Shown here: in pieces, positions 21,534-22,345 of the stretch
Numbering within the stretch: position 1 is the stretch's first letter
How the letters are laid out: every line of letters starts with the position of its first letter
Source: Anaeromyces robustus
Lineage: Eukaryota > Neocallimastigomycota > Neocallimastigomycetes > Neocallimastigales > Neocallimastigaceae
Assembly (NCBI GenBank): GCA_002104895.1
Contig: MCFG01000052.1
Span: forward strand, 1-22,500
DNA: 22,500 nt
Direction: 5' to 3'
Notes under the pieces: model-generated
The model's input: only the letters and a program-made list of their open reading frames with translations
Database searches by the model: none
What the model was told of the DNA's origin: nothing
Made by a program: the position numbers and the translations under genes

Positions 21534-22345
21534 ATGTCTGGAGTTAACAACAAACAAGAAGAAGCTACCTCTAAGGATTATTACTTTGATTCCTATGCTC
21601 ATTTTGGAATTGTAAATTATATATATAATTTAAGAATAATATAATTATATAATTTTGTATTTTTTATTTCTAGTTTATTTTTTATTTTATTTTATTTATA
21701 TTTTTATTCTAATTTTAAAAATATAATATATTATTTTTATATAATAATAATAAAATTACATAGCATGGTAATTATTTTTTCTCTTTTTTTTTTTAGTTGA
21801 TTTATATAAAAAAAATAGAAATGTTTTTTATTTAACTTCGAAAGGAAAGAAAAAAGCATATTTATATTTTTTTTATTTATATATATCATATTGATTAATT
21901 CAAAAAATTAAATAGAGGTAAATATATATATATATATATTTTATACATATGTATTTTTATTAGTATAAAAATTCCTTTTATGTATTAATATTTCTTATAA
22001 AAACATTAATTACAAATATATCTATATCAAAGGAAATGTTAAAAGATAAGGTTAGAACTTTAAGTTATCGTAAAGCAATTTATCAAAATGAACATTTATT
22101 TAAGGATAAAGTTGTTTTAGATGTTGGTTGTGGTACTGGTATTCTTTCTATGTTTGCTGCCAAGGCAGGTGCCCGTTTAGTTATTGGTGTTGATATGTCT
22201 GACATTATTGATCAAGCAAAAATTATTGTTAAGGATAATCATATGGATAACAAAATTATTTTATTAAAGGGTAAAATGGAAGATATTGTATTACCAGTTG
22301 ACAAAGTTGATATTATCATTAGTGAATGGATGGGTTACTTCTTAT
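21534..22345 (+). CDS. PRMT1: Type I protein arginine methyltransferase PRMT1/HMT1, 5' part
   Basis: This enzyme moves methyl groups from S-adenosylmethionine to Arg in RNA-binding proteins and histone H4. Exon 1 (21534-21611) encodes 26 residues ending [12 protein letters not shown], the conserved PRMT1 N-terminus. The next large exon (22033-22345) begins [13 protein letters not shown] and carries motif [16 protein letters not shown] (an acidic residue at the SAM ribose position), the post-motif [11 protein letters not shown] with the first Glu of the double-E loop, and ends FL with one extra base. No continuation (expected FYES) appears before 22500, so the rest is off the right edge. Joining these two exons directly keeps phase but loses the invariant His-Glu of GIHEEM. 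Two candidate micro-exons, CATG at 21764-21767 and AG at 21916-21917, restore GIHEEML exactly. The truncation is due to the window only. Confidence 0.93.
21764..21767 (+). other. PRMT1: Candidate 4-nt micro-exon of PRMT1 (CATG)
   Basis: It is flanked by ACATAG before and GTAATT after; GTAATT is a donor used repeatedly in this window. It would supply CAT (His) and the first base of GAG (Glu) of the conserved GIHEEM motif. The intron before it would be 152 nt, a normal size here. Confidence 0.6.
21916..21917 (+). other. PRMT1: Candidate 2-nt micro-exon of PRMT1 (AG)
   Basis: It is flanked by AAATAG before and GTAAAT after. Together with CATG it makes CAT GAG, and the next exon continues GAA ATG, giving His-Glu-Glu-Met. 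The introns on either side would be 148 and 115 nt. An alternative is a non-canonical acceptor ending in AA at 22030, which would add the same AG directly to the next exon. Confidence 0.4.

Follow-up and report, generated by a model that had tools for sequence, protein, structure and literature searches.

A 4-nt and a 2-nt exon probably complete the HEEM motif of PRMT1 in an anaerobic gut fungus

In this work we analysed a window of 22,500 nucleotides (bases 1–22,500 of a 235-kb contig, in a genome of 70 Mb and 769 contigs) that carries a PRMT1 gene whose HEEM motif is very probably built by the removal of three GT–AG introns around two successive exons, CATG and AG. The coordinates of these exons, the frame that they restore, the fact that they form the sole path across the gap and the low frequency of such a path by chance are confirmed as observations. 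Most likely, both exons would be included constitutively, by stepwise splicing.

Results

We identify the gene at position 21534 as PRMT1, an arginine methyltransferase that this anaerobic gut fungus has in a single copy. The best PDB chains for its joined exons are PRMT8 and PRMT1 (E ~1e-52), an identity that rests on the exons up to 22345, the gene continuing past this point, and exon 1 matches one place only in a genome-wide search, which makes the gene single copy. The motifs that we take to be those of PRMT1 (18 residues, and SEWMGY) are all found once both micro-exons are joined. The C-terminal half of PRMT1 carries the THW loop and a beta-barrel. With Pfam, the second PRMT1 exon matches general methyltransferase families only, and three other frames of the window gave no match. 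G+C content is very low across the window (10–20% per 1.5 kb). The genome contains CBM_10 fungal dockerins in large number (at least 150 matches listed and 683 first-look candidates, with 0 of 14 control genomes positive), which, together with the low G+C, we take to tie it to the Neocallimastigomycota, i.e. the anaerobic gut fungi. A search for PRMT1-related loci gave a single locus among genome contigs (L006, 5001–5342) and none among viral contigs; it encodes a PRMT-like protein with 46% identity to the query on a Planctomycetota MAG contig, and is either a bacterial gene or eukaryotic contamination. Elsewhere in the window, exon pieces resemble by eye what we presume to be phosphatidylserine synthase (5185–7715, + strand), SNU23/ZMAT2 (8570–9391, − strand) and RRP1/Nop52 (11012–12900, + strand).

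All PRMT1 features lie on the + strand. Exon 1 (21534–21611; 26 residues, placed by the aligner) ends with ..HFGI at a codon boundary. It is followed by intron 1 (21612–21763, 152 nt, GTAAAT...ATAG; donor at the 17th and acceptor at the 27th percentile among the 194 surveyed introns), by the 4-nt micro-exon CATG (21764–21767), which supplies the His codon and the first Glu base and is placed by the sole path, by intron 2 (21768–21915, 148 nt, GTAATT...ATAG; donor 57th, acceptor 62nd percentile), by the 2-nt micro-exon AG (21916–21917), which supplies the last two Glu bases and is placed by both the path listing and the spliced aligner, and by intron 3 (21918–22032, 115 nt, GTAAAT...AAAG; donor 93rd, acceptor 12th percentile). 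The exon that reads EMLKD...SEWMGYFL spans 22033–22345, its 3′ end before GTAAGT being placed by eye. Coordinates, intron lengths (152, 148 and 115 nt) and the flanks ACATAG|CATG|GTAATT and AAATAG|AG|GTAAAT were all correct on recheck in the original prediction. Both micro-exons thus have canonical AG and GT flanks with spliceable introns on either side, and both restore conserved residues: if exon 1 is run directly into 22033, the joint lacks HE relative to the five PDB alignments shown, all of which (5/5) have it. The Met of HEEM is presumably Met48 of rat PRMT1. According to a passage of a review, Met48 helps to place the target arginine (PMC8619983).

Translation of the possible isoforms bears out what had been claimed for them. 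With both micro-exons the product reads GIHEEM and the frame is open; with both skipped it reads GIEM, in frame, HE being deleted. The 4-nt exon alone leads to a stop at codon 33 and the 2-nt exon alone to a stop at codon 30, while retention of any one of the three introns leads to a stop at codon 37, 37 or 45. Neither length, 4 or 2 nt, is a multiple of three, and the frame is kept by the pair only.

To read across the 421-nt gap between ..HFGI and EMLKD.., all GT–AG and GC–AG paths with up to three micro-exons that spell CAY-GAR were listed. Exactly one His-Glu path was found, CATG + AG; no additional solution came from one 6-nt exon, from GC donors or from three micro-exons, so that the earlier assertion of a unique solution holds for the exhaustive GT–AG and GC–AG listing. 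Dinucleotide-preserving shuffles of the gap contained any GT–AG path in 135 of 2,000,000 cases, or 152 when GC donors were allowed; this number of shuffles was used since an earlier run of 4,000, with 0 paths, was too small. When 421-mers were concatenated from the genome's own introns, a path to HE was found in 4/20,000 and a path to a random dipeptide in 4/20,000. No path was present in any of 899 overlapping stretches of non-coding sequence from the window, and among 113 real introns of at least 130 nt none had a path to its own hidden dipeptide and none a path to HE. The 2-nt exon taken separately is less constrained: with CATG given, an AR exon of 2 nt was present in 1,983 of 50,000 shuffles, 347 of which had a GTAA donor. 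Our own spliced protein aligner, a plain one, picked both micro-exons unprompted at four of four intron penalties, and it again picked CATG and AG in PRMT1 when given a PRMT3 reference.

Introns and exons of the genome were surveyed in five families chosen by us, not at random (small GTPases, ubiquitin-conjugating enzymes, phosphatases, proteasome and PRMT). Seventy-nine loci were set out and 15 were dropped because, by eye and from their places, they repeated a gene already included; the 64 non-duplicate loci were aligned and 62 were usable, L058 and L069 being dropped for scores below 120. They contain 228 introns, of which 34 that lacked good flanks were left off the splice-site tables, leaving 194. 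Since the aligner accepts GT–AG introns only, these counts do not speak to the frequency of GT–AA introns. Intron length in the 62 loci has a median of 148 nt, a 75th percentile of 192 and a 95th of 484; the three PRMT1 introns (152, 148 and 115 nt) are therefore of usual size, and a lone intron across the 421-nt gap would be long. Among donors, GTAAAT ranks first (44/194) and GTAATT third (20/194); TAG is the commonest acceptor (126/194) and AAG the second (57 of 194). The splice signals of PRMT1 are mixed, one donor being strong and one weak, and two acceptors below average. No usable branch point consensus emerged from the surveyed introns, and towards intron ends there is a mild excess of ACTAA (12 vs 3 of 126 introns). 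ATGTAT is more strongly enriched in the last 60 nt of introns relative to their 5′ parts (17 vs 3 of 126). Only one of 19 short deletions in the 62 alignments lies near an intron, and in a variable stretch, so that absence of a conserved HE exactly at a junction would be exceptional.

Short internal exons are frequent elsewhere in this genome. Among 171 internal exons, a set that excludes PRMT1 itself, the ARL gene of the window and three extra genes (L091–L093, whose shortest internal exon is at least 44 nt), 5 are 10 nt or shorter, 8 (4.7%) are 15 nt or shorter, 16 are 25 nt or shorter and 42 are 51 nt or shorter. None of these 171 is below 5 nt, which makes the 2-nt PRMT1 exon an outlier even in its own genome. 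The shortest, a 5-nt exon AACAA in a RAS-like gene (L028, 1839–1843), is required for the conserved REQYMRT, and such a path arose by chance in 24 of 100,000 shuffles. Two RAB6-like copies (L073, 1402–1409, and L075) have in common an 8-nt exon with one synonymous change, and the intron sequence around it has diverged more between the copies than the exon has. The L075 copy has ATG where L073 has the next AAG acceptor; it may be decaying, or the gene may start there. In L086, a 9-nt exon is followed by a weak donor, GTTTTA; by eye, a better donor could be had with a shorter exon, which was rejected because it breaks the frame. The ARL/ARF-like gene of the window (15500–17200, + strand) has six introns in its aligned part and a 23-nt exon at 16245–16267. 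In a Rho-like gene (L041, 745–783) the phosphate-binding loop reads GD-TCGKT, one residue under the usual GDGACGKT, and no intron interrupts the gene there.

Two paralogues, labelled after the better of two typed references, show where introns fall around the same motif. In L009, the CARM1-like paralogue, an intron interrupts THQ|QNMLED at the same codon boundary and in the same phase (0) as PRMT1 intron 3. In the PRMT3-like paralogue (L008) HIQM is uninterrupted, and an intron lies four codons downstream of the HE|EM boundary.

Discussion

The structural part of the original prediction, that two micro-exons build HEEM, is upheld by the uniqueness of the path, its low frequency by chance, the fit of the splice sites, the intron lengths, the intron of the paralogue and the other short exons of the genome; the part that made of them a switch is not. 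Three other explanations of this stretch were weighed. It is quite unlikely that the 4-nt exon alone is real and is followed by an intron (21768–22030) that ends in AA, the last exon starting AGGAAATG. Such a GT–AA intron would also give an open frame with GIHEEM and would spare one micro-exon, but it requires a non-canonical acceptor and leaves AG|AG|GTAAAT as a coincidence, of the frequency given above for the AR exon (1,983/50,000 shuffles, or 347 with a GTAA donor). The intron would moreover be in phase 1; that of the CARM1-like paralogue, at HE|EM, is in phase 0, which favours a 2-nt exon over a 4-nt exon with an AA acceptor. The two structures yield the same mRNA, and neither of the transcript tests first put forward separates them: ATTCATGAGGAAATG, named as supporting, is common to both, and a transcript with an AA acceptor at 22030, named as refuting, is identical to that of the two-micro-exon model. 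Likewise, GGAATTCATGAGGAAATG in an mRNA means that HE is included and fits the GT–AA intron equally well.

The two pieces might instead normally be skipped, in a PRMT1 without His-Glu or in a dying gene, as the frame is kept when both are left out. This is the least probable of the explanations considered, given that HE is present in all five PDB alignments shown, that the readable exons are well conserved in a single-copy gene, and that chance would have to account for a canonical path to exactly HE, at about 1 in 15,000 shuffles. The proposal that inclusion versus joint skipping acts as a regulated on/off switch for the enzyme found no support, and we regard it as very unlikely. Joint skipping is in frame, and a switch-like micro-exon is known in a fungus: according to a passage of PMC11121469, the micro-exon of Trichoderma Xlr2 is regulated by glucose, and, as with those of PRMT1, a conserved protein domain depends on it. 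However, the PRMT1 sequence, unlike what is described for Xlr2, bears no sign of regulation, and with either exon lost or any single intron retained a stop comes by codon 45 at the latest, so that joint skipping would need two coordinated events. Constitutive inclusion suffices to explain the sequence.

We therefore favour constitutive inclusion of CATG and AG, in which case both micro-exons would be present in essentially all functional PRMT1 mRNA. The splice sites that flank the 2-nt exon are too near one another for simultaneous binding, which implies that the introns would be removed one by one, as in recursive splicing. If intron 2 were removed first, the product CATGAG|GTAAAT would offer intron 3 a strong, near-consensus donor, and the intermediate that keeps intron 3 would read CATGAG and then GTAAATATAT. 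If intron 3 were removed first, TAG|AGGAAATG would be an ordinary acceptor for intron 2. Either order would avoid binding on both sides of the 2-nt exon together. The site of intron 3, HE|EM, is probably ancient among PRMT genes; introns 1 and 2 would have been gained later, detaching six coding bases from the end of exon 1. In flies, ratchet points are zero-length exons in long introns. PRMT1 differs from them in that 2 coding nt are kept and the introns measure 115–152 nt; these 2 nt between AG and GT set the AG exon apart from a recursive splice site of zero length, and it may nevertheless work like one. What the AG exon has in common with the recursive splice sites of long fly introns, the subject of PMC6110457, is a donor that comes right behind an acceptor, and stepwise removal.

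Ultra-short exons are known as a kind. The original prediction placed exons of 2–4 nt near the lower limit known for eukaryotes; they are near it and not at it, since 1-nt exons are described in three papers (PMC4674806, PMC8831610, PMC12940212). One of them concerns Fusarium CYP621A, which requires a 1-nt exon, the first in a fungal gene according to its authors, who also cite exons of 2–5 bp in Arabidopsis, Drosophila and humans (PMC12940212, in part). As in PRMT1, this is a sub-codon exon in a conserved fungal motif, inferred from a frame gap and AG/GT flanks; in CYP621A, however, there is one exon of 1 nt, aligned over many species and confirmed by reads, whereas in PRMT1 a 4-nt exon would be followed by a 2-nt exon, a reading made from the sequence of a single genome. 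For the 1-nt exon of Arabidopsis APC11, recursive splicing was proposed, with backing from a potato invertase micro-exon whose second intron is removed first (PMC4674806, in part), and plant VPS55 also has a 1-nt exon (PMC8831610, in part). To judge from these passages, APC11 and VPS55 resemble the PRMT1 reading in having constitutive ultra-short exons; they differ in being single exons, in plants and verified by RNA, while the PRMT1 pair is fungal and read from DNA. Directly successive micro-exons, as in PRMT1, are known from RPS24 (PMC12686416, PMC11162997) and from a rice transcript with adjacent exons of 5 and 12 nt (PMC8831610), the rice pair being longer than that of PRMT1 (17 nt total vs 6). 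Among the literature matches listed, no report combined micro-exons with anaerobic fungi. From such matches and a few passages, this pair, this phylum and this motif appear to be unreported.

A broader reading, plausible rather than probable, is that gut fungi form a lineage rich in micro-exons, whose spliceosome would routinely handle exons below the size at which exon definition works, by strict stepwise removal of introns, with the PRMT1 pair as an extreme case. Each of the single slips translated in this stretch ends in a premature stop, and the capacity for splicing could therefore set a ceiling on how much PRMT1 is made. PRMT1 is a further, likely example of ultra-short exons in direct succession, here two, within an invariant motif of a core enzyme, and this stretch provides a small natural test case for the joining of exons too short to have both splice sites occupied at once. 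If the reading is true, standard annotation may break or truncate conserved proteins of gut fungi at short exons.
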